Assembly: GCA_028871795.1 (NCBI GenBank)
Contig: JAGWMG010000001.1
Location: 1-64,000, forward strand
Direction of reading: 5' to 3'
Length of the DNA stretch: 64,000 bases
Origin: Alphaproteobacteria bacterium
GTDB lineage: Bacteria > Pseudomonadota > Alphaproteobacteria > Micropepsales > Micropepsaceae
Under the pieces are notes generated by a model. The model saw only the letters and a list, made by a program, of their open reading frames with translations. It did not search any database and had not been told where the DNA came from. This document shows positions 7,317 to 19,855 of this stretch, one piece after another (within the stretch, counting starts at the first letter, position 1; each line of letters starts with the position of its first letter). The position numbers and the translations under genes are program-made.

Positions 7317-8321
7317 ATGGGGCGGGTGTGTTTTAGTGCAATTATAGCTGCGTTTGTGCTGGGGAACGAATGCGCCATCGCGCAGACCGACAGCGGGTCG
7401 CCGTTCTTGCGGCCTGAGGGTACGCAGTCGTCAGCGGCGTCCAATGCGCCCTGCGACTACACGTTTCCCTCAAAGGTGCCAGTGAAATGCTGGGCCGGGC
7501 AGAAATTCATGGTCTTGCCGATAGACCCGCAATTGCGGAGCTACGGCTATCAAGAGTTCACGAAAGGCGACAGCGTGATTGACCACGCAACTTACGACGA
7601 GCTTGCCGGAAAGGTCGTGACCGTCACTGATGTTCAATGGCGACTGATCGCTCCCGCTCTCCCAGACAGTGGAGGCTGGGTTGTGACCTTTCAGGACGAT
7701 GCTTCCGGCGTCACGTACCATACGAGGGCCGTGACCCTTCCTAACGACCCACCTGACGACGCGACCGTTGACCACTTGGCGTTGGTCCGCGACTTACAGG
7801 GTGCGCGGCAAATGTATCTGGGCAAGACATTTTGGATGAAGTCGGGTTGGTTGCCCGAATTCAATGGTAACGGCTCAATCTCATTTTCAAACACGGTGAC
7901 CTACAAAAAGTTCGTGCCGACCACGATCAGCGATGTACTCGCCAGTTATGACCCGCATGAGCCGGTACGCGTCGTCATCAAAAATGACGCCGGACAAGAG
8001 GGCTACTTCGATATGGCCGTCTCTCCCACAAATCGAAGTGCAAAATGGCCGGGCAAGGTCGGCGAGGCTGCGTTTGCGGAAGTCATGGCGTCAACCGACC
8101 CTAAGCTCGCACACAAATGGCCGGCGAAAGTGTGGGACGCAATAGAAAACCAGAAAGTCTTCATGGGGATGACGATGGAGCAAGCCCGGCTGAGTTGGGG
8201 TGAGCCGCGTGACGTGAATCGCACTGTTGTAGGCGACCATGTGCATGAACAGTGGGTCTATGGCGAAGCGCACAACTATCTCTATTTTGAGGATGGGAGG
8301 CTAACCGGCATCCAAAATTGA
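7317..8321 (+). CDS. Exported protein with C-terminal BamE/SmpA-like module
   Basis: The product has a signal peptide probably cut after AIAQ, a long middle part of unknown type, and a C-terminal segment of about 55 residues reading VFMGMTMEQARLSWGEP, then EQWVYG and YLYFEDGRLTGIQ. That order (GMT, G-P, WVYG, Y-FE-G-LT) is the signature of the BamE/SmpA/OmlA fold, used for protein or envelope contacts. The AAGGA site lies very close to the ATG, so a GTG at 7326 is an alternative start. It is linked to the upstream lipoprotein gene. Confidence 0.7.
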   Translation: MGRVCFSAIIAAFVLGNECAIAQTDSGSPFLRPEGTQSSAASNAPCDYTFPSKVPVKCWAGQKFMVLPIDPQLRSYGYQEFTKGDSVIDHATYDELAGKVVTVTDVQWRLIAPALPDSGGWVVTFQDDASGVTYHTRAVTLPNDPPDDATVDHLALVRDLQGARQMYLGKTFWMKSGWLPEFNGNGSISFSNTVTYKKFVPTTISDVLASYDPHEPVRVVIKNDAGQEGYFDMAVSPTNRSAKWPGKVGEAAFAEVMASTDPKLAHKWPAKVWDAIENQKVFMGMTMEQARLSWGEPRDVNRTVVGDHVHEQWVYGEAHNYLYFEDGRLTGIQN

Positions 8322-8413
8322 ACGGCTCTACGGCATCCGCCCACGTGATCGCAGAAGGGTAAGAGAATGGTGACTGGATAAGCCATTCATCATAGTTCGG
8401 CCCTTGCTCGCAC

Positions 8414-10153
8414 TTAACTCACGCCCATGGATCGCGCGGCTACCTTCAAAGCCGCGTTCAATTCGGTAGACCAGTCTTCCGGCGCCGTGACGACAAGATT
8501 TATGTTGTATGTGCCGGACGGATTCTCTTGTCCAAACACTCGCTCAAGCTCGGTAGAAATCCGCCCGATTTGCTCCAACAATGAGTCCGGGAATTTTAGC
8601 AGCGCAGCCTGCACGCCCGAAAACGCGGAAGGCAGGTTCGTGAAGCGCACCGTCTCTTTCCACGTTAGGACAGTTCTCGCGCAATCGGCCAAACCCTCAC
8701 ATACCTTCTCAATTGTAGTCACATCTCCCGGCTGACCCGCTGGCCCCCATGATGCTGGCAGGCGCTCATTGACTAGGGTGCCGAAGTCCTCGCATAGCTT
8801 CGGAACTTCGTCCATACGCGCCCTACACCAATCCAATGTGTCTTGTGGGGACGCAATTTGCCCGAGGACCTTCGTGTACGCACCCTGTTGCAGGCGCTTC
8901 GATTGCTCGATAACGGGGCCTACGTTGTCACGCAGAAGCGTGATTGTCAGCTTGTACTCCCAAAACTTTGGCTTCTCCGTTTTGATCCTCTTGGCTTCAT
9001 CGCCCACAACAAATGTTGTCGGCGCTGGCAGGGACGCCTTCGGAGACTCGGAGGTACATGGCGGAGCCAGCGCAAGCAGATTAAGTTTCTCTATTATGCC
9101 TCTTAGGCCATCAAGCGCCGCATCGAAGCCGGTGTGATCAACTACGCGTGAGAAGTGCAATATCTTCCTGAGCCCTTCCGCACTACTCATACCCATTTGC
9201 AGGTAGAGCGCCTTCGGCAGTTGCCGATTGTTGTTGAATCGGCGATCTGGCCCACCGTTCTTGTTCACGAACCTCCACGTATGTCCGACAATCTGGGTAT
9301 CGCCGGGGACACTGCCGTCTTCGATGAAGACCGTCGTTGACCACAGCACTTCAAGTTGGTCATAGGACAGCGCACCGGCGCGCGAGCCTTGGACAATCAG
9401 CGCAACGTCGGGGAAGAAGTACACATTTTGGCGTCCACCGATGATCGCAGGAACGGAAACGTTCGTCTTGACGACGCCCGGAACCGAGTAGGTCAAACTT
9501 GCAGCCTTGCGCGAAAGCAAGCGGCCAGCGCCCGCGTTACGCTTCCAATCTGCGGTGTACTCGGCAGTATCGACATTCCATATCTGATTGACGGATCGTA
9601 CCCGGTCGAATTCTTCGGTGAGCTTCTGAAACGGTGCGATAGCGTCGTCGTCCAAATCGTACATGATGACGACCGCCCGACGCTGTTGGTCGCGCAAAGC
9701 AAGCCATATGGATAGTGCCGCCGTTGCAACCAACGACACGATGCCTAGAGCTGGTCCGCTTGGTTGCGAGAACGCAATGAGGCTCAGCACGCCACCGCCG
9801 ACAAGCGCCCACGGCCATAGCGGACTGAGCGCCATCTTCTCATTGATCTGTTCCAAGATATGGGAGCCCGTGGTGGGCTTCATCTCAAGAACGTCGCCGG
9901 TTTCGATGACCGTACCGGTGCCGCTTTGTGGTGATGGTGATGGCGGGACCGGTGTTTGCTGTCTTCTGGGCCGGTGAGCGCCACCAAGTGAGGCACGATA
10001 GTAGAGCCCGCCGCGCCCCATGTGGACGTAGTTGCCTCTCGGTCCGGTCCCGACTCGAAAGCCCTTCACACCGACTGAAAGGCCAACGCCCGAGCCCGAG
10101 AGATTGAACCTAAATGGTCCTGCCGAAATGCTTTTCCGAAGATAGAATCCCAT
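8414..10153 (-). CDS. Membrane protein with N-terminal DUF4236 domain
   Basis: Residues 1-55 (GFYLRKSISAGPFRFNLSGS and following) form a clear DUF4236 domain, a glycine-rich beta module of unknown function found at the N-terminus of many bacterial proteins. Two membrane segments follow at about residues 113-153 (PWALVGGGVLSLIAF and IVSLVATAALSIWLAL). The remaining 400 residues are soluble and unrecognised. The gene points away from the lipoprotein gene at 10237 and is the only minus-strand gene in the cargo block. Confidence 0.75.
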   Translation of the reverse strand: MGFYLRKSISAGPFRFNLSGSGVGLSVGVKGFRVGTGPRGNYVHMGRGGLYYRASLGGAHRPRRQQTPVPPSPSPQSGTGTVIETGDVLEMKPTTGSHILEQINEKMALSPLWPWALVGGGVLSLIAFSQPSGPALGIVSLVATAALSIWLALRDQQRRAVVIMYDLDDDAIAPFQKLTEEFDRVRSVNQIWNVDTAEYTADWKRNAGAGRLLSRKAASLTYSVPGVVKTNVSVPAIIGGRQNVYFFPDVALIVQGSRAGALSYDQLEVLWSTTVFIEDGSVPGDTQIVGHTWRFVNKNGGPDRRFNNNRQLPKALYLQMGMSSAEGLRKILHFSRVVDHTGFDAALDGLRGIIEKLNLLALAPPCTSESPKASLPAPTTFVVGDEAKRIKTEKPKFWEYKLTITLLRDNVGPVIEQSKRLQQGAYTKVLGQIASPQDTLDWCRARMDEVPKLCEDFGTLVNERLPASWGPAGQPGDVTTIEKVCEGLADCARTVLTWKETVRFTNLPSAFSGVQAALLKFPDSLLEQIGRISTELERVFGQENPSGTYNINLVVTAPEDWSTELNAALKVAARSMGVS

Positions 10154-10236
10154 CGCTCAGTGCCGCCTCCCGAGAAGATTGGAAATCTGATCAGTATTCA
10201 CGTAGTTTGCAACTCATAGCTGAGGGGGAGGGGTGT

Positions 10237-11151
10237 ATGCGTACCAGTGCAGCGTCTCGACAGAACTGTCTTTCTCAAATCGCTGTATTGAGCCTTGTGT
10301 GCGTCAGCCTAGCGAGTTGCGGGAGGCAGGTCACCGGTGAGCGATATTGGAAAGACGTGTCTCAACTCACCGGCGGGACGATGGAGGTCCACTTCGTCGT
10401 AATCGATCCCAAGTTCGTGCGGGATCGAAAGGTCTATGAGGACGCAAGCGAAGCAGTTTGCACCGGGGACATTTGCCAGATTGGCTTTTTCAAAGACAGG
10501 AACGACGTGCCGATCGAAACCATGACCGCCGACTTCTTCGACCACGGCGGCTGGGACGGAAGGCACGAAGTCGCCTTGTTCTTTCGGAACACGAACTCCG
10601 GGCTCAAGACGTTGCAATTCGATTGCAGCTTTCTCCCCCAACAGGACCTCGATAGTTGCCTGACACCGGTCAAGCCGTCGCCCGAAGCACAGAGTGCAGC
10701 ACAGGCAAGAGGGCCATTAGTGGGATTCGGCAAAGCAAAATTCGGGATGACCACAAGTAAGCTAACTGCTGCGCTTGGCGGACCCGATAACGTGTATGTG
10801 CTAAATCCAACAGACAACAGAACGGTTCTTCGTACCAAAGCGGATTACCACGGACGAACGTACAACGCGTTCTACAACATCACCGCTACCGGTTTCAGTA
10901 CCGTGCTGATGCAATGGAGCGCGCTCATTGACAATGACGCTTGCGCCAAAGAAGCAAAGAAGATCGCCGCCGATGTGAGCGGCGACTTCGGCAAGGAAGA
11001 TGATTTTAGCTACTACGATGCTGGGGGTAAGACGTTCAGATATAGGTGGCTATTTTCTGACGGTCGAACTGTGGAATTGGACAATCTCGGCGTGAAGGAT
11101 GGCGATTGTACGCTCAGCCTAAATTTCAGCGCGAAGGGCGAATCCAACTAG
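10237..11151 (+). CDS. Putative lipoprotein with BamE-like segment, 304 aa
   Basis: The start is placed at the ATG at 10237 because a purine-rich GAGGGGGAGGGG lies just upstream and a good lipoprotein signal peptide follows, ending LASC; the open frame extends further upstream but overlaps the divergent gene. The middle of the mature protein holds FGKAKFGMTTSKLTAALGGP, resembling the first helix-loop of BamE/OmlA modules, as in the exported protein at 7317. The rest is unrecognised, with several cysteines suited to an oxidising compartment. Confidence 0.7.
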   Translation: MRTSAASRQNCLSQIAVLSLVCVSLASCGRQVTGERYWKDVSQLTGGTMEVHFVVIDPKFVRDRKVYEDASEAVCTGDICQIGFFKDRNDVPIETMTADFFDHGGWDGRHEVALFFRNTNSGLKTLQFDCSFLPQQDLDSCLTPVKPSPEAQSAAQARGPLVGFGKAKFGMTTSKLTAALGGPDNVYVLNPTDNRTVLRTKADYHGRTYNAFYNITATGFSTVLMQWSALIDNDACAKEAKKIAADVSGDFGKEDDFSYYDAGGKTFRYRWLFSDGRTVELDNLGVKDGDCTLSLNFSAKGESN

Positions 11152-11164
11152 CGAGAGGAAAAAC

Positions 11165-11725
11165 ATGCGGCTCGGGGCATGGGAGATTGCGGCGAACGAA
11201 ATGGGTAAGATCGTTCTTACCGGTTGTATCGGTGCGATAGTCGGCGGTGCCGTGGTGTATGCAGTTCTCACGATTAAGCCTTCGTCTCACTCGATGGAAT
11301 TTGCGCCCCTCACTGAATCTCTGACGCGCCTCAATGAGGCAACCGCTCAAGGGGTGAGCCTAAGCGCGTTCTCTGACTTGTTGCTCGACGCCAAGACCAA
11401 GTTTCAGGTCGTGCAAAAGGACCTCCCTGAGGACGCCAAGGCGATGGTATCACTTGCGGTCCAACACGAAGACGATGTTCGACAGATATGGTCGAACTCG
11501 ATTGAATTCTCGCGTATTTGCCCAAATAGCTGCGAGGACACCCTAGAACCGCCCATGCTCGATCTGGGTATTTTGAAAAAGAAGGCTGACTACAAGGCGC
11601 ACTTCAAAGATGTAATTGACAACTTTGGCTTTGACACAACCGCGCAGTCGACATTGGTTTCAGAAGCGCTGACGGCGGCGGGACCTTCTCTTTCGTCTGC
11701 CATCGCCAAAGTCCAAAGCCTTTAA
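11165..11725 (+). CDS. Single-pass membrane-anchored hypothetical protein, 186 aa
   Basis: One hydrophobic segment near the N-terminus (IVLTGCIGAIVGGAVVYAVL, about residues 15-35) is followed by a helical, acidic domain of about 145 residues. GAGAGG precedes the ATG at good spacing, and the gene starts 13 bp after the lipoprotein gene, so the two are probably co-transcribed. An internal ATG at 11201 is a possible alternative start. No family is recognised. Confidence 0.65.
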   Translation: MRLGAWEIAANEMGKIVLTGCIGAIVGGAVVYAVLTIKPSSHSMEFAPLTESLTRLNEATAQGVSLSAFSDLLLDAKTKFQVVQKDLPEDAKAMVSLAVQHEDDVRQIWSNSIEFSRICPNSCEDTLEPPMLDLGILKKKADYKAHFKDVIDNFGFDTTAQSTLVSEALTAAGPSLSSAIAKVQSL

Positions 11726-11748
11726 TCTGCGTTAGGAACGGCGAAGCT

Positions 11749-12525
11749 ATGGAGGCGATGGCGGTGACCGCCGATCAATCTGATGAAAGCCTTAGTTCAC
11801 CCGTCGCGGTGGGCACATACGTCGTCTGTCTGCTGGACGTACTCGGATTCGAGCACATTCTAGGTCAATTGGGCTTGGAGGTGCTGCATTCTAAGTATGA
11901 GTTGCTAGTTGCTCACGTTCGCAAACAGACGGGCGGTATTGATATTGTACCCCTCCCGGATGGAACGACGGCAGTCGGCTGGCCTGAGGTCGGAAACGCC
12001 TATTTCAGCGACAGCATGATCTTTTGGACGCGGTACGCCGGGACCATCGGGCTGTTCAGCTTCACTCAGATGATTTCGGACGTGATTTGCCACGGAATCG
12101 AAATCGGCCTTCCTTTGCGAGGTGGAATTGCAGCGGGAGACGCGATCTTAGATTCGAGTCGCGGCGTCTTCTTGGGAGAGCCTTTGGTAGAGGTCGCGCG
12201 ATTGGAACGCGCGCAGGCGTGGATTGGCGCATCTTTCGGCCCTTCGTTCCAAGCCGAACGATTCAAATGCAACTTCTATCTCAACACGGTGTTGCCATTC
12301 AGAAGCCACTACAAAGAGCCCGATAGACAGCTTGCAACCGGGATTGCCATCGATTGGCCTAGACGCTGGCGTGAAGCTCGAAAGAGCGAACCGGACGCCG
12401 CGATAAAGGCGTTGGATGTGTCTCCACCATTCTCTCCCTACTATCAAATGTCGTTGCGCTTTGCCGAGTTCTCTCGGCAAAACCATGACTGGTTCAATAG
12501 GCAAAGCCATCTGGACTACGGCTGA
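11749..12525 (+). CDS. Class III nucleotidyl cyclase-like protein, 258 aa
   Basis: The sequence order resembles a class III cyclase catalytic domain. CLLDVLGFEHI (D30) matches the first metal-binding strand, YFSDSMIFW (D88) the second metal position, RGGIAAGDAI the GI-x-x-G turn, and LGEPLVEVARLERAQA the segment that usually reads G-x-x-VN-A-R. It has no membrane segment or sensor domain. Proteins of this soluble type include the cyclases of Pycsar antiphage systems, but I see no nucleotide-gated effector next to it, so the role is open. It follows the anchored protein gene by 23 bp. Confidence 0.55.
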   Translation: MEAMAVTADQSDESLSSPVAVGTYVVCLLDVLGFEHILGQLGLEVLHSKYELLVAHVRKQTGGIDIVPLPDGTTAVGWPEVGNAYFSDSMIFWTRYAGTIGLFSFTQMISDVICHGIEIGLPLRGGIAAGDAILDSSRGVFLGEPLVEVARLERAQAWIGASFGPSFQAERFKCNFYLNTVLPFRSHYKEPDRQLATGIAIDWPRRWREARKSEPDAAIKALDVSPPFSPYYQMSLRFAEFSRQNHDWFNRQSHLDYG

Positions 12526-12768: not shown

Positions 12769-13854
12769 TCACCCAAGCGCGGCCAGGGCAGCCGTCACGG
12801 TTTCGTCCGCGGCGGCCCAGGCCTTGCGCTTCCAAGCGGCCGTGTTGGGGTAGAACGCGGTGCGGATTTCCCTGGTGATCGCCGCGGCCAAAGGATGGCG
12901 GGCGCCGGCAATCCGGTGCAGCCAATTGTCCCTTCGCAGCGCGAGAAAGACGTCGAGGGTGGAGCGCGTGCCCACTTCCAACGCCGCGAAGGTCAGCTCG
13001 CGGCCTTTCATCCAGGCCGCGAACGCCCGGTCGATGGTCCCGGTCAGCCGCACGGAGACGGATTCGCCCGCCGCGCTCGATTTGACGCGCGCGCCCCAGA
13101 TTGTCTTGGCGCGTTCATAGGGCGCGCTGTGCGGCGGATCTTCGCTGATCATTTCGCCTTCGCCGGGCGCGCCCAATCCGGTGTGCAAATCGATGACGAT
13201 CAATTTCTTCACCGTGGCGAGTTCCTGGCGCAGGACGGCCTCCAGCATTGCGACGGACCAGCTCTTGCGCTTTCCTCCGAAGTAGAGCCCGTCCTGGTGG
13301 GCGTACTGGCCCTTGGAGATCGCCTCCTGCAGGGCCGTCAGGCCGTGCGCCTGCGAGTAGGCGAGAAGCTTGGCATTGGCCGCGTTCAGCGTTTCGGGCG
13401 AAATATCCTTCGGCGCGATGGCATCGGCGAGGGCTTCATAGGCGGGGTTGCGCGGCGGGTTGGCGTGATCGACGAAATTGCGGTTGATGTCGGCGTTTTC
13501 CTCGTCGACGCGCCGGTCCCAGGAGAATCCGTGAGGGTTCAAGGCATGCAGCATGACGACCTTGGCGGCGTTGGAGACGCGGCGCACAAGCCCTTCGCGC
13601 AGCAGTCCGGTCTGCACGCCAGAACCGAAATAGCCTTCCACGCCGTGCGTTCCCGAGATCAGCAGCAGGGCTGAGGTGGCGTCGCGAGGGCCGATGGTCG
13701 CGGTGTCGAGGAACAAGGGCTTGCCGTCGCGCCCGCGAGCCTTGGGATGGACCCGCGCGATGGTGCCAAGGCCTGCGGCTGTGCAGGCTTGAAGGAACGC
13801 GGCGCGCGCGGAGCGGTAATCGGTGGGAAAATGACGTTCCGGGTTCCTGCTCAT
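12769..13854 (-). CDS. DUF2817 family M14-like metallopeptidase
   Basis: This 361-residue protein carries the M14-type zinc ligands: H and E in SGTHGVEGYFGS near residue 90 and the second histidine in VIDLHTGLG near residue 222. ALNPHGFSWDRRVDEENAD and NRNF between them are also characteristic. DUF2817 proteins are carboxypeptidase- or deacylase-like with unknown substrates. No signal peptide is visible, so it is probably cytosolic. A Zur-like motif lies about 60 bp upstream of the start (separate entry), which would suit a zinc enzyme. Confidence 0.85.
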   Translation of the reverse strand: MSRNPERHFPTDYRSARAAFLQACTAAGLGTIARVHPKARGRDGKPLFLDTATIGPRDATSALLLISGTHGVEGYFGSGVQTGLLREGLVRRVSNAAKVVMLHALNPHGFSWDRRVDEENADINRNFVDHANPPRNPAYEALADAIAPKDISPETLNAANAKLLAYSQAHGLTALQEAISKGQYAHQDGLYFGGKRKSWSVAMLEAVLRQELATVKKLIVIDLHTGLGAPGEGEMISEDPPHSAPYERAKTIWGARVKSSAAGESVSVRLTGTIDRAFAAWMKGRELTFAALEVGTRSTLDVFLALRRDNWLHRIAGARHPLAAAITREIRTAFYPNTAAWKRKAWAAADETVTAALAALG

Positions 13855-13923: not shown

Positions 13924-14010
13924 GCGCCCGCCCGGGAGCGCGATAAGTTCGCGGATAACAAATTATATTGCATTAACAATGAATTGCAGGAAAGAACAGG
14001 TCGCCGCCGG

Positions 14011-16245
14011 TTACTTCAAAATCGGCCGGAAGGCGCCGTCCCAATCCTCGCTCGGCGGATTATCCTCGAAATAGGCGACGCGCGTGAGGTGGAGGTCGTA
14101 GAGCTTCTGGCTGGCGCCGGACAACTTGCGGCACTGCTCGATCAACTCGCGCGCTTTCTGCCATTGCTGGGCGCGCAGCGACTGGAAGATGTGATCGTGG
14201 AAGGTGGCGAGCGCCCGGAATTTCGGGCTGGCGCGCATCACCGGATTGCCGAGCATGGCATAGAGCTTGACCGGCTCGTCGTGGCCGGCCAGCGCGATGT
14301 AATCGACTTCCAGGAAGGCGAAACCGCGCTCCGAGGATTTGCGCGTCTCCTCGCTGACGATCACGGCCGGTCCGTATTGGCCGGAAATCTGCTGGATGCG
14401 CGCGGCCAGCACGGTGCAATCCCCATGCACCGAATAGGCGGTGCGGCCATGCGCCTTGAAGCCGCCGGCGATGGCGGGCCCGGTCGAAACGCCGATGCCG
14501 ATCTCCACCGGCGACAATGCCACGCCGTCGATGCGCCGCTCGTGCGTGATGATTTCGTTGGTGCGCGCAATGGTTTCCATCATGGCGTTCGCCGCCTCGC
14601 AGGCATGGATGGCGTGTTCGAGATCGTCGAGAGGGGCGTTCCAGAAGGCGGTGAAGCCTTCGGTCGTCAGCTTGTCGATGGTGCCGCCATGGTCGAGCGC
14701 CACATTGATCAAAGGTTCGAGGACGCGCTGCATCAGGCGGGTGAAGGCGGCAGGATCGCCGCGGAAGGACGTGGCGAGCTCGGCGAACCCGCGCACGCCG
14801 CAAGCAAGATAGCTCACCGTGCGGCTTTCGCCCTCGAGCTTCATCAGTTGCGGATTGCGTGCGATCTGATCGATGGTGCGCGCCGGCAAGGCGTCTGCGA
14901 AGGCAAGCCTGAGCTTGTTGCGCGATCTGGCGATCTCGGACCAGCGTGCGCCGGCGCCCGTCAGCCACACGGCCGCCAGTCCGAGATTGAGGCCCAGCGC
15001 GTCGAACAGGACGTGCTCGCCCGCATAGAGCCGCCAGGAGACATAGCTCACGCCCGCGATGGTGCCGAGTACGAACAGCCCGGCCCAGCGCATGCCCAGC
15101 CGCGCGAAGACCAACACACAGCCCAAGCCGAACAGCGCCAGGCACAACAGTTCTGCCTGTGCCGCCGCGGCGGGCCGGCGCAACGCCACCCCCAGAAGAA
15201 GATTCTCGGCGGCTTCCGCATGCACTTCGGCCACCGCACGAAGCGCCGTGGGTGTGTCCACCAGATCGTCGGGCGCGCCGATATAGACGATGGCGCCGCG
15301 CAGGCTGTCAGGGGCGAGCGTCTTGTCGATGAGGGCGGAAGCGTCAACGTTGCGCTCGGGATGCACGCCGGAATAGGCGATCCAAAGCGAGCCGTCGGGC
15401 GCCGTCGCCAGTTCGCCGCGTCCGGTGTCGACGGCAGCGACCACCGGCGTTCCGCCGAACAGTCCGCCGTTGCCTTCGTCGCTCTTCAGCGTGATGGCAT
15501 CCTTGCCTTCGGCCAGCCGCAAGACCTCGGCGTCGAGCGAGGGCACGGCTTTGTCGCGCAAGCGGAAGACCAACGGCATGCGCCGGACCTTGCCGTCGGA
15601 ATCGACATCGAGATTGACCGCGCCGACGCCAGCGCTTGCCGCTTCGATCGCGGCGAGCGAGGCCGATGCCTGGTCGAAGGCGCGCACCCGCCCGAAAGGA
15701 TCGCGCGCGCCGGACCAGCCGACGGTGGCCTTCAGCATCAAAGTGCGCGCCGGTCTTGCGTCTCCCAGCGCAAAGCCCGTCACCGTCTTGACGCCCGTCA
15801 GGGCGGAAGCCAGCGCATCGTCGGGCGACGGCATGCGATCGAGCGCCGTACGGGCCGCGTCGTAGGTGGGTCCGGGCGGCACCAGCGCCAGCAGATTCTT
15901 CGGCGATGCCGGGTCGGTGTTGTCGAGCGGGTCGACGAAAACCACGATCGAGGCGCCCTGCGCCTTCAACGCTCCGACAAGCTGGGCAAGCGCCGCATGC
16001 GGCCACGGCCAGGCGCCGAAGCGCACGGTGCTGGCCGCATCGATGTCGAGAACGCGAACCGGATGGCCGCTGCGGGAGCCTGTGTCTTCATACGTGCGCG
16101 GAAGCGATGCCTGGTAGCCGTCGAACAGGATCCCGCGCAGACGGCTCGCGATGCCGCCCGCGTCCGCGCCAAGCACGAACAATGCGACAGCAAGCATGAC
16201 GAGCGGAAACGCCCAAATGGCAATCGGCCGGTTGCGAAGGCTCAT
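14011..16245 (-). CDS. CHASE2-type sensor with degenerate class III cyclase domain
   Basis: The 744-residue protein has an N-terminal membrane anchor, a periplasmic CHASE2 region (about 30-350), three closely spaced membrane segments (about 365-430) and a cytosolic class III cyclase domain (about 470-650). The catalytic positions are altered. The first metal aspartate (F-x-D-I-R-G-F in the family) is glycine in ACGVRGF. The second (GD) is glutamate in KLTTEGF. The ribose-contacting Asn is replaced by Val in GDCTVLAAR, while the following Arg is kept. A normal two-metal reaction is therefore unlikely; it may be a regulatory pseudo-cyclase. The ATG at 16245 was chosen for the GGGATG before it. 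Confidence 0.85.
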   Translation of the reverse strand: MSLRNRPIAIWAFPLVMLAVALFVLGADAGGIASRLRGILFDGYQASLPRTYEDTGSRSGHPVRVLDIDAASTVRFGAWPWPHAALAQLVGALKAQGASIVVFVDPLDNTDPASPKNLLALVPPGPTYDAARTALDRMPSPDDALASALTGVKTVTGFALGDARPARTLMLKATVGWSGARDPFGRVRAFDQASASLAAIEAASAGVGAVNLDVDSDGKVRRMPLVFRLRDKAVPSLDAEVLRLAEGKDAITLKSDEGNGGLFGGTPVVAAVDTGRGELATAPDGSLWIAYSGVHPERNVDASALIDKTLAPDSLRGAIVYIGAPDDLVDTPTALRAVAEVHAEAAENLLLGVALRRPAAAAQAELLCLALFGLGCVLVFARLGMRWAGLFVLGTIAGVSYVSWRLYAGEHVLFDALGLNLGLAAVWLTGAGARWSEIARSRNKLRLAFADALPARTIDQIARNPQLMKLEGESRTVSYLACGVRGFAELATSFRGDPAAFTRLMQRVLEPLINVALDHGGTIDKLTTEGFTAFWNAPLDDLEHAIHACEAANAMMETIARTNEIITHERRIDGVALSPVEIGIGVSTGPAIAGGFKAHGRTAYSVHGDCTVLAARIQQISGQYGPAVIVSEETRKSSERGFAFLEVDYIALAGHDEPVKLYAMLGNPVMRASPKFRALATFHDHIFQSLRAQQWQKARELIEQCRKLSGASQKLYDLHLTRVAYFEDNPPSEDWDGAFRPILK

Positions 16246-16324
16246 GTTCATCCCATTCGGGCGCATTCTTGCGCCCACGCGTTCAATTTATCACGCGGCG
16301 GCGGAAAAAGCGGAAGAAGCTTTG

Positions 16325-16359
16325 TGTCATTCTGAGGATGGTGGGTCATAAGAATGTCA
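16325..16359 (-). repeat. Inverted repeat downstream of znuB
   Basis: TGTCATTCT (16325-16333) and AGAATGTCA (16351-16359) pair at 8 of 9 positions and lie just after the znuB stop. A T-rich run follows on the minus strand about 15 bases later, so it may help terminate the znuCB transcript, but the spacing is not that of a classic intrinsic terminator. Confidence 0.3.
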
Positions 16360-16365
16360 GGCGTA

Positions 16366-17169
16366 TCACGCAAATGCCTGCCAAAGGCGGGAGGCCAAGG
16401 CCGAAGCCGCGAAAATCGCGCCGGCGGCCAATACGATGCAAGGCCCCGCCGGGGCGTCCGTCAGGTAGGCCAAGGCCAGGCCGATCGGCGCGGCCAGCGC
16501 GCCTGCCAGTGCGGCCATCGCCGCCATAGCTTCCGGCGTGCGGGCGAACGGCCGTGCGGCGGCCGGCGGAACGATCAGCAGCGCGACGATCAGGAGCGCG
16601 CCGACAACTTTCAGTCCGAACGCGACCAACAAGGCTACGAGCACAAGAAACGCCGTTTGCGGCAGACCACCACGTTCGCCTTCCGCAGCGGCAATGTTTC
16701 CACAAATTGCGTTTCGTAACAGCGGCCGCCAGAGCAAGGCCGTGACCGCCAGCACGCCGAAGCTCGCAGCCGCAATCGCCGCCACGTCGGCTGCCGACAA
16801 TGCCAGCACATCGCCGAACAGGTAGCCGAGCAGATCGGTGCGCACATTCTCCATGGTTGCCAGCAGGATAAAGCCGAGCGCCAAACCCATATGGCCGACA
16901 ATACCGACGAAGGTTCCTGCCGGGATGGTGCGGTCGCCGGCCCGCGCCATCACCAGGGCCGCAACGATGGCCAGCGCCGCTGTGCCGACCACCGCGTTGA
17001 TACCGATGAGCAGACCCAATCCAGCTCCGAGCAGGCCCATATGGGCGACCGACTCGCCCAGATAGGCCATGCGCCGCCACATCACGAAGCAGCCGATGGG
17101 GCCGCAAGCCGCGCCCAGGAGACCGGCGCCCAGAACGGCGCGCCAGAGAAAATCATCCATGAAGATCAT
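16366..17169 (-). CDS. znuB: Zinc ABC transporter permease ZnuB
   Basis: A polytopic ABC-3 family permease of about 267 residues with seven to eight membrane segments and conserved motifs WRRMAYLGESVAHMGLLGA and VGALLIVALLIVPPAAAR. It forms the membrane channel of the high-affinity zinc importer. The ATG at 17169 overlaps the znuC stop as ATGA, so the two are co-translated; a GTG at 17181 and an ATG at 17160 are alternatives. No periplasmic ZnuA gene accompanies the pair in this window. Confidence 0.9.
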   Translation of the reverse strand: MIFMDDFLWRAVLGAGLLGAACGPIGCFVMWRRMAYLGESVAHMGLLGAGLGLLIGINAVVGTAALAIVAALVMARAGDRTIPAGTFVGIVGHMGLALGFILLATMENVRTDLLGYLFGDVLALSAADVAAIAAASFGVLAVTALLWRPLLRNAICGNIAAAEGERGGLPQTAFLVLVALLVAFGLKVVGALLIVALLIVPPAAARPFARTPEAMAAMAALAGALAAPIGLALAYLTDAPAGPCIVLAAGAIFAASALASRLWQAFA

Positions 17170-17903
17170 CCATCGTGGCACACCGTTTTACCCGAGGGGG
17201 TGTGGGCATGGTCGTGGTGATGGGCGTAAAGCGCTAGCTCGCCGGCGGCGCGCGCGCCGAACAGCTCGAGGAAGGCGGGATCGCGCACCACGGCGTGCGC
17301 GTCGCCTTCGCAACAGACATGGCGGTTGAGGCAGACGACGCGATCAGCCTGCGCCATCACCACATGCAGATCGTGACTGACCAGCAGCACCCCGCAGCCG
17401 AATTCGTCGCGGATGTCGGCGATCAGATGATAGAGGGCGGCTTCGCCGGCGACGTCGACGCCGGCCATCGGTTCGTCGAGCACCAGCAAGTCCGGGCGTC
17501 CGGCGATGGCGCGCGCCAGGAGCACGCGAGCAAGCTCGCCACCGGAAAGCGCGCCCAATTGCCGGTTCCTCGCCTCGGCGACGCCCACGCGCGTCAGGGC
17601 GTCTTCCCTCGCCCGGACCGGCGCGAACAGGGCGAGGAATCCTCCGACCGTCATCGGCAGGCTGGGGTCGCGGCCGAATTCCTGCGGCACATAGCCGATT
17701 TTCAGTCCCGTTCGGCGCCTGATTGTCCCCTCGGACCGCACCAGTCCGAGGACGGCCTTCAGCAGCGTGGTTTTTCCGGAGCCGTTCGGCCCGATCAGAG
17801 TGACGATCTCGCGTGGTCGGACAGCCAGGGAGACGCGGTCGAGGATATGCACGCCGCCGGCATGGACGCTCAGCCGGTCCGCTGCGATCAGGGGTTCGCT
17901 CAT
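17166..17903 (-). CDS. znuC: Zinc ABC transporter ATPase ZnuC
   Basis: The ATP-binding subunit of the zinc importer, 245 residues, with Walker A GPNGSGKTT, signature LSGGELARVLLARA, Walker B LLVLDEP and the switch histidine in LLVSHDLH. The C-terminus has a histidine-rich stretch (HHHDHAH), common in zinc-handling ATPases of this family. It leads the znuCB unit and has a Zur-type palindrome only eight bases before its start codon. Confidence 0.92.
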   Translation of the reverse strand: MSEPLIAADRLSVHAGGVHILDRVSLAVRPREIVTLIGPNGSGKTTLLKAVLGLVRSEGTIRRRTGLKIGYVPQEFGRDPSLPMTVGGFLALFAPVRAREDALTRVGVAEARNRQLGALSGGELARVLLARAIAGRPDLLVLDEPMAGVDVAGEAALYHLIADIRDEFGCGVLLVSHDLHVVMAQADRVVCLNRHVCCEGDAHAVVRDPAFLELFGARAAGELALYAHHHDHAHTPSGKTVCHDG

Positions 17904-19432: not shown

Positions 19433-19855
19433 CTATTTCGTAAGCCGCATGGCCACCTGGGCAAGAAGGATGCGGGCGCCCTGGCGCCCCAGCGAACGGT
19501 CGGTGGCATGCTGAAGCCGGTCGGCGATTTCCGACACGTCGGGCTGCCGCCAAGGTCTCACCGAAGTCGCCGTGAATGCCATCAGGCTGCGGACGTAGAC
19601 GTCGCGCAGCACCGGCAGCGCCTGTTCGGTTTGGGCGCGCAGCTCGGCATCGGGCACGTCGAGGCCGATGCCGATCATCAGCAGACCCACGATCTTGTTG
19701 CCGTCCATGATGGTCGTGTAGATCGGATCGATCATCAGGTAGCTCGCCGATTGCGTGATCTTGTGGACGGGCGTCGCCTTGCTGCCGCTGCCGGCGCCGG
19801 CGGGCACGGCGAGCACAAAAGCGGCAAGGACGGCGAACAGGACGGACCGGCGCAT
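19433..19855 (-). CDS. Exported FliL-like protein, 140 aa
   Basis: A cleavable signal peptide (probable cut after PAGAG) is followed by about 115 residues. They read YLMIDPIYTTIMDG, GLLMIGIGLDVPDAEL, a helical stretch with LPVLRDVYVRSL and a C-terminal helix. This beta-beta-helix order resembles the periplasmic domain of FliL and its non-flagellar relatives in alphaproteobacteria. No flagellar genes are nearby, so a motility role is not supported. Confidence 0.6.
   Translation of the reverse strand: MRRSVLFAVLAAFVLAVPAGAGSGSKATPVHKITQSASYLMIDPIYTTIMDGNKIVGLLMIGIGLDVPDAELRAQTEQALPVLRDVYVRSLMAFTATSVRPWRQPDVSEIADRLQHATDRSLGRQGARILLAQVAMRLTK

Follow-up and report, generated by a model that had tools for sequence, protein, structure and literature searches.

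The 744-residue CHASE2 protein described here is probably a non-catalytic relay that signals by protein contact rather than by messenger synthesis, a reading to which we assign a probability of roughly 60%. Its catalytic residues have been lost while the gene has been kept under selection in most of its genus, and this combination is what points to contact signalling. The initial annotation had proposed a pseudo-enzyme. Sequence comparisons support that view well, since the first metal-binding aspartate (Asp-1) is missing across the clade, the cyclase fold is predicted to be retained and the gene is under purifying selection. The gene lies in a 64,000-nucleotide stretch of a contig from an alphaproteobacterial soil bacterium, and this stretch we call the window; the features discussed below are listed in Table 1.

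Table 1. Coordinates in the window of the CHASE2 pseudo-cyclase gene, its parts and two nearby genes.
Feature	Position	Strand	Details
CHASE2 pseudo-cyclase gene	14011..16245	minus	ATG at 16245, stop 14011-14013, 744 aa
CHASE2 sensor domain, residues 21-373	15127..16185	minus	Pfam PF05226, E 6e-32
Three predicted long helices after CHASE2, residues ~361-440	14926..15165	minus	taken as membrane helices (predicted)
Class III cyclase-fold domain, residues 470-665 (G483, E529, V612)	14251..14838	minus	alignments, model
C-terminal three-helix tail, residues 666-744 (79 residues)	14014..14250	minus	most conserved part in the genus
DUF2817 gene, downstream neighbour	12769..13854	minus	Pfam PF10994, E 1e-106
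258-aa ORF	11749-12525	plus	no family match in Pfam, NCBIfam or PADLOC

Domain layout and active site

The gene is full length, as first annotated, with correct coordinates and frame. Pfam places CHASE2 well above its cut-off (PF05226, 111.6 bits against 26.3) and the Guanylate_cyc family more modestly so over residues 477-663 (PF00211, E 9e-7, 29 bits against 21.9). In an AlphaFold2 model of the whole protein (22 aligned sequences, mean pLDDT 81), a helix at residues 9-27 precedes CHASE2, three helices at 361-383, 385-410 and 416-449 follow it, and the three-helix tail occupies residues 674-728 with low-confidence joints. A fold search, which covers mainly residues 433-714 and says little about CHASE2, superposed the cyclase part on Cya2 (Z 25.5, rmsd 1.9, 193 residues) and on CyaB (Z 25.1). 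The cyclase fold is therefore predicted to be intact, in line with the initial annotation. The protein falls within the class III nucleotide cyclase fold superfamily, and with CHASE2 N-terminal to predicted membrane helices and an output domain it has the predicted architecture of a CHASE2 receptor.

Alignment with two class III cyclases of solved structure, CyaB (3r5g) and Cya2 (2w01), shows what has happened to the active site. Asp-1 is replaced by G483 (ACGVRGF against FSDIRGF), the second metal aspartate (Asp-2) by E529 (LTTEGF against FVGDCV) and the catalytic asparagine by V612 (CTVLAAR against REVNLASR). A profile alignment to 21 canonical cyclases (193 columns, E 5.9e-50) agrees at all three positions. 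The substitutions of D, D and N by G, E and V that had been read by eye are thus borne out, and no aspartate stands at either metal position. All six active-site positions (the three above plus a lysine, an aspartate and an arginine) are invariant in the 21 canonical relatives. Both metal aspartates and the asparagine of an active class III cyclase are accordingly missing, and its arginine is present as R616. Asp-1 binds both metals in class III enzymes. The change at Asp-2 is mild and conservative. K525 and D609 are kept in the window protein together with R616, so the description of the remaining motifs as intact holds in part; the canonical glycine at 528, just before Asp-2, reads threonine, and K525, R616 and D609 all vary across the clade.

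According to Pfam, the direct neighbours of the gene encode DUF2817 and an ABC-3 permease. Immediately upstream, and likewise on the minus strand, lie ZnuB- and ZnuC-like genes for zinc transport (16366-17903), which also occur in several relatives and not in the rest of the genus. An open frame of 783 codons (13984-16335, plus) runs antisense to the whole cyclase gene, and similar frames occur in relatives; it is most likely a by-product of GC-rich codons.

Distribution of the catalytic losses

Homologues were found at E 1e-40 in 81 of the 96 genomes of the order, among them 62 of the 69 genomes of the same genus; the remaining seven gave no match at this threshold. The homologue of Rhizomicrobium electricum DSM 21034 (L019) is 67% identical. 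We aligned 61 rows, 59 from the genus (window included) and two from sister genus g26, where two of seven genomes had a match. Three further genus matches stand outside the alignment (G003, G011 and G086, the last in split pieces), and Asp-1 is glycine in the first two (L057 of G003, L018 of G011).

Asp-1 is kept in none of the 60 readable rows. The letters at this position are G 50, R 4, S 2, E 1, N 1, V 1, K 1 and one gap, its alignment being uncertain in five strongly diverged rows (L125, L127, L128, L130, L131) and some letters of the frameshifted L129 (G024) being out of frame. Asp-2 reads D in 34 rows, E in 15 and something else in 10, with two gaps. The catalytic asparagine survives in 3/60 readable rows, the arginine in 40/60 and the lysine in 12/60. 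Orthologs thus share the loss of Asp-1, and only this loss is general in the clade. Loss of both aspartates, as originally described, is correct for the window protein; it is not a general trait, given that 34 of the 59 readable clade rows retain D at Asp-2. Elsewhere in the family, 17 genomes in five genera had a match; D, D and N are all kept in the 12 of them that were read, and likewise in seven of eight rows from other families, the exception being G044, a member of the tail-marked group introduced below.

Outside the window genome, 41 genomes of the genus have a long open frame, 703-922 codons between stops. In some genomes the protein has been altered or lost: besides the seven genomes lacking a match, it is partly deleted in G015 and G101, and in G024 (L129) a frameshift splits it over two frames.

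A loss confined to this genus was first suggested by the DUF2817 neighbour that the gene has in common with catalytically complete cyclases of sister genera. We rejected this as the whole story because a search with a profile of the C-terminal tail (A3) found degenerate relatives in other families. The profile matched 152 of 385 genomes of the class at E 1e-5. Only the best A3 matches were read as loci, 25 of them from outside the family (L165-L189, with L172 a fragment). Among the 13 best readable outside loci (L165-L178 without L172; L165 was read as L150), one or both metal aspartates are missing from 11, and the other two (L176, L177) keep both and lack the asparagine. The next 11 outside loci comprise three degenerate (L180, L182, L188) and eight canonical ones. 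Patterns differ among families: f121 keeps Asp-1 and has lost Asp-2, f9 shows the reverse, f4, f116 and f137 have lost both, and f91 is mixed.

For a tree of 63 rows we used the cyclase domain, leaving out the tail and the six catalytic columns. In this tree a branch (97/83) separates 39 tail-marked from 24 canonical rows. Asp-1 is kept in 4/39 and Asp-2 in 20/39 of the tail-marked rows, and both are kept in 24/24 of the canonical ones. The fewest changes needed on this tree are 4 for Asp-1 and 10 for Asp-2, which, together with the differing patterns of loss, indicates that catalytic losses were repeated. The tail-marked rows evolve quickly and three terminal branches carry a long-branch flag, so that the grouping of these rows may in part be artefactual.

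Selection, the C-terminal tail and shortened forms

Purifying selection acts on the pseudo-cyclase and is strongest in the C-terminal tail. Whole-gene dS to the closest relatives is about 0.7-1.0; against G026 it is 1.04, with dN of 0.172 in CHASE2, 0.068 in the cyclase domain and 0.022 in the tail. Averaged over 705 pseudo-cyclase pairs (dS below 1.3), dN over whole-gene dS was 0.61 in CHASE2, 0.67 in the membrane helices, 0.27 in the cyclase domain and 0.16 in the tail; the corresponding values for 54 canonical pairs, taken with a different limit (dS below 1.8), were 0.39, 0.47, 0.21 and 0.54, and because these Nei-Gojobori values are near saturation only the ranking of the parts is safe.

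What sets the pseudo-cyclases apart is the constraint on the tail only. We had considered that the dead cyclase domain might be unusually conserved, and dropped this: its conservation is about that of active relatives or slightly less (0.27 against 0.21), and canonical cyclases likewise hold the cyclase domain tighter than CHASE2. CHASE2 is looser in the pseudo-cyclases than in their canonical relatives. Among pairs matched for CHASE2 divergence, identity in the tail is 0.77 for 424 pseudo-cyclase pairs against 0.33 for 49 canonical ones, whereas in the cyclase domain it is 0.62 against 0.61.

The same picture emerges when tail and cyclase-domain identity are set against each other within groups. 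The tail is ahead in full-length forms of the genus (0.77 against 0.64, n = 42), in short forms (0.66 against 0.59, n = 9) and in pseudo-cyclases of other families (0.47 against 0.41, n = 15), the last being partly a selection effect since those rows were picked by tail similarity. It is behind in canonical cyclases of the same family (0.41 against 0.66, n = 12) and in other canonical cyclases (0.42 against 0.62, n = 10). A claim that the tail gained constraint was softened because tails of recognisable similarity occur in canonical cyclases outside the family; the tail thus looks ancestral and more strictly held in the pseudo-cyclase groups. A search of the tail profile against solved structures found no relative (best E 0.42).

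CHASE2 itself is mostly missing in 16 of the 61 rows (L114-L121, L123-L128, L130, L131), which retain 46-71 of 353 CHASE2 positions and are in no case cut by a contig end. Four of these short rows were scanned with Pfam; CHASE2 was found in none, and Guanylate_cyc was over the cut-off in L114 and L126, weak in L124 and absent in L130. The role of receptor that had been proposed for the window protein is therefore plausible from its CHASE2 domain, but some species have dropped that domain and kept the rest.

In nine of the 16 short rows (L114-L121, L123) a FliL-like frame ends within about 280 bases of the pseudo-cyclase, overlaps it or is fused to it. In G015 (L120:9044-10150) the FliL-like gene is fused in frame to pseudo-cyclase and tail, with parts deleted; in G101 (L132:8706-9479) the cyclase domain is deleted and the fusion is to the tail alone. 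These are either independent deletions or assembly errors. Two in-frame deletions into the tail fit a tail that matters, and two cases can be chance. A FliL-like export signal, if present, would place a fused tail in the wrong compartment for a relay. More generally, in other branches of the genus a FliL-like gene lies immediately upstream of the pseudo-cyclase, mostly within 150 bases, and the window holds a short protein (19433-19855, minus) with a weak FliL-like match (E 0.007).

Gene context, alternative readings and related systems

The neighbourhoods of relatives give a clue to where the gene came from. A STAS-MlaE permease set stands beside 11 of 12 canonical homologues in the same family and beside 14 of 17 pseudo-cyclase loci in other families (L190-L206), where two of the three loci without it are cut at a contig end (L202, L206) and the third has 1.6 kb left there (L195). 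The set is mostly divergent to the cyclase and usually comes with an ATPase, an MlaD/MCE protein and a PqiC-like lipoprotein; at several loci MlaC, a dipeptide-epimerase-like gene and DUF2817 lie downstream as well. The permease was beside none of 10 other canonical homologues, four of which lie on short stretches (L052, L146, L147, L209). Permease, ATPase, MCE protein and PqiC-like lipoprotein are the same four parts that the accessible portion of PMC12436622 describes for the Mpc (Mla-Pqi chimeric) lipid-transport system of Brucella.

No Mpc operon was found near the gene in any of the 61 rows from the genus and g26. DUF2817 was near the gene in 41 of these 61, in some by weak or partial matches, and also adjoins several catalytically complete relatives; the epimerase was near it in one g26 locus (L124). 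The window genome does carry an Mpc-like set, on another contig (C2, about 219-223 kb). Mpc is a neighbour of the relatives and is not homologous to the pseudo-cyclase. If the Mpc neighbourhood of its relatives is taken as a guide, the gene most likely began as a cyclase encoded at an envelope-lipid locus and later became separated from that locus. In sister genera, catalytically complete CHASE2 cyclases lie near an Mpc-type gene set (L134, L136, L144), a context in which a cAMP link to lipid transport is possible.

For the relay we envisage the following steps. A homodimer would form through the cyclase-fold domain, as in relatives; CHASE2 would read a periplasmic signal and so change the dimer; and output would pass by direct contact through the pseudo-cyclase surface and the helical tail, replacing cAMP or cGMP synthesis. 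The Mpc, MlaC, dipeptide epimerase and DUF2817 genes of relatives suggest that this output concerns envelope or lipid homeostasis, which is the weakest step because the Mpc linkage is absent in the genus itself. A broader version sees an alphaproteobacteria-wide family of CHASE2 pseudo-cyclases, marked by the tail ASPKFRAL...CRKLSGA...LYDLY...DWDG, that was born beside the Mpc operon, lost catalysis repeatedly and now acts as a non-catalytic envelope sensor steering lipid transport or cell-wall turnover via the tail; we offer it tentatively and think it more doubtful than not.

Glutamate at Asp-2, together with the retained K525, D609 and R616, makes nucleotide binding or unusual chemistry possible. 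The pocket might bind a nucleoside triphosphate or a second messenger without turnover, with binding itself as the signal. K525 and D609 are substrate-specificity residues, and in another class III cyclase a non-catalytic second nucleotide site appears to be regulatory, according to the available part of PMC12264004. We nevertheless consider such a ligand receptor unlikely. Across residues 441-744, 23 positions lost constraint and 16 gained it in the clade, where Asp-1 switched to glycine. The positions released from constraint include F481, K525, G528, D529, N587 and N612 of the pocket, whereas a conserved ligand site should show the reverse.

Alternatively, the protein could act as a regulatory subunit, functional only when paired in a heterodimer with a class III cyclase that is itself active, in the manner of NeoR with RGC1. 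Subunits inactive alone are on record, as the consulted part of PMC12264004 describes for NeoR, and the surviving K525, D609 and R616 could complete one site with the metal aspartates of a partner. Neither the lysine nor the arginine is conserved in the clade, however, at the counts given above. A partner is also lacking in the window genome (2.98 Mb, 22 contigs, 95.6% complete): the canonical profile A1 matched only the pseudo-cyclase itself, and PF00211 gave no match. Since PF00211 missed even the pseudo-cyclase in this genome search, we rely mainly on A1; both profiles cover class III cyclases, and other classes or very divergent cyclases are invisible to them. Exactly one A1 match and none to PF00211 were likewise found in 28 of the 69 genus genomes. 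In 23 of the 28 the single match sits at the pseudo-cyclase's own place among the matches listed, and the other five (G005, G020, G023, G024, G090) have no location there. In favour of a partner, the canonical profile has additional matches in some genomes of the genus. The window genome has seven matches to the cNMP-binding domain.

The initial annotation had named a second cyclase-like gene 1.5 kb away as a possible partner. This 258-aa ORF contains LLDVLGF and YFSDSM stretches that resemble class III motifs by eye. We could not confirm it as a cyclase by the library searches in Table 1, and against the canonical cyclase profile it aligned over a meaningless 15 columns (probability 0.3%); distant cyclase kinship is possible. 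Its single-sequence model was uninformative (pLDDT 33), no viral relative was found, and it is present in one of the 96 genomes of the order, so it was probably newly acquired. On these grounds, and with no other class III cyclase detected by the two profiles, we rejected it as the partner and regard a partner-cyclase role as unlikely. The ORF lies in a stretch of lower GC (8000-12525; 0.551 in the 8001-12000 block) in which one of four genes scanned had a Pfam match (DUF4236), and which may be an island ending just before the DUF2817 gene. All told, the heterodimer seems to us quite improbable.

We give equally little credence to residual enzyme activity, whether a cyclase that uses E529 and a substitute ligand or some other nucleotide reaction. 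In its favour, 49 of 59 readable rows have D or E at Asp-2, the window protein retains D609 and R616, and purifying selection still acts on the cyclase domain; but Asp-1 is lost from all 60 readable rows, mostly to glycine, the asparagine from 57 of 60, lysine and arginine vary, and the f4, f116 and f137 relatives have lost both aspartates. That the gene is decaying with no function left is very improbable, for although the active site and CHASE2 are eroded and a few genomes lack the gene or carry it split or partly deleted, the long frames in 41 other genomes and the low dN/dS of tail and cyclase domain disfavour it.

A non-catalytic relay therefore remains our preferred reading, and related systems help to place it. 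The CHASE2 class III cyclases CyaD1, CyaD2 and CyaK of Sinorhizobium meliloti, compared here by description only, have a like architecture of CHASE2 and class III domain; by the accessible part of that account (PMC13001267) they make cAMP, whereas the window protein is without the catalytic residues. NeoR, the neorhodopsin subunit of heterodimeric rhodopsin guanylyl cyclases of chytrid fungi, is likewise a membrane receptor with a class III domain inactive alone and is the nearest precedent we saw for such a subunit. In the portion of PMC12264004 available, however, NeoR retains the two metal aspartates and contributes them to the active site, while the window protein has lost both and its genome shows no partner. 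Two DUF2652 proteins, Rv2561 and MUL_2491, are bacterial class III relatives that keep only one metal aspartate; as far as the available text of PMC4886424 goes, they are small, soluble, single-domain proteins without CHASE2, unlike ours. The accessible part of a survey of actinobacterial cyclases (PMC2447327) added nothing here. When five window proteins were scanned with PADLOC, the cyclase domain matched the Pycsar cyclase PycC (PDLC00734, E 9.8e-15). This is likely a general class III match, and the catalytic aspartates of PycC are absent from the window protein. Our searches of the open-licence literature turned up neither a described family of CHASE2 pseudo-cyclases nor a link of such a family to Mpc, and no paper connecting CHASE2 with MlaE.

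The phenomenon is real, genus-wide and more general than could be seen from the window at first. If a pseudo-cyclase is indeed maintained across a genus in which many genomes show no other class III cyclase, the cyclase fold would serve there as a relay without a messenger. The catalytically complete homologues of sister genera, beside a lipid-transport operon, provide a natural before-and-after comparison in which this change of function is directly testable.
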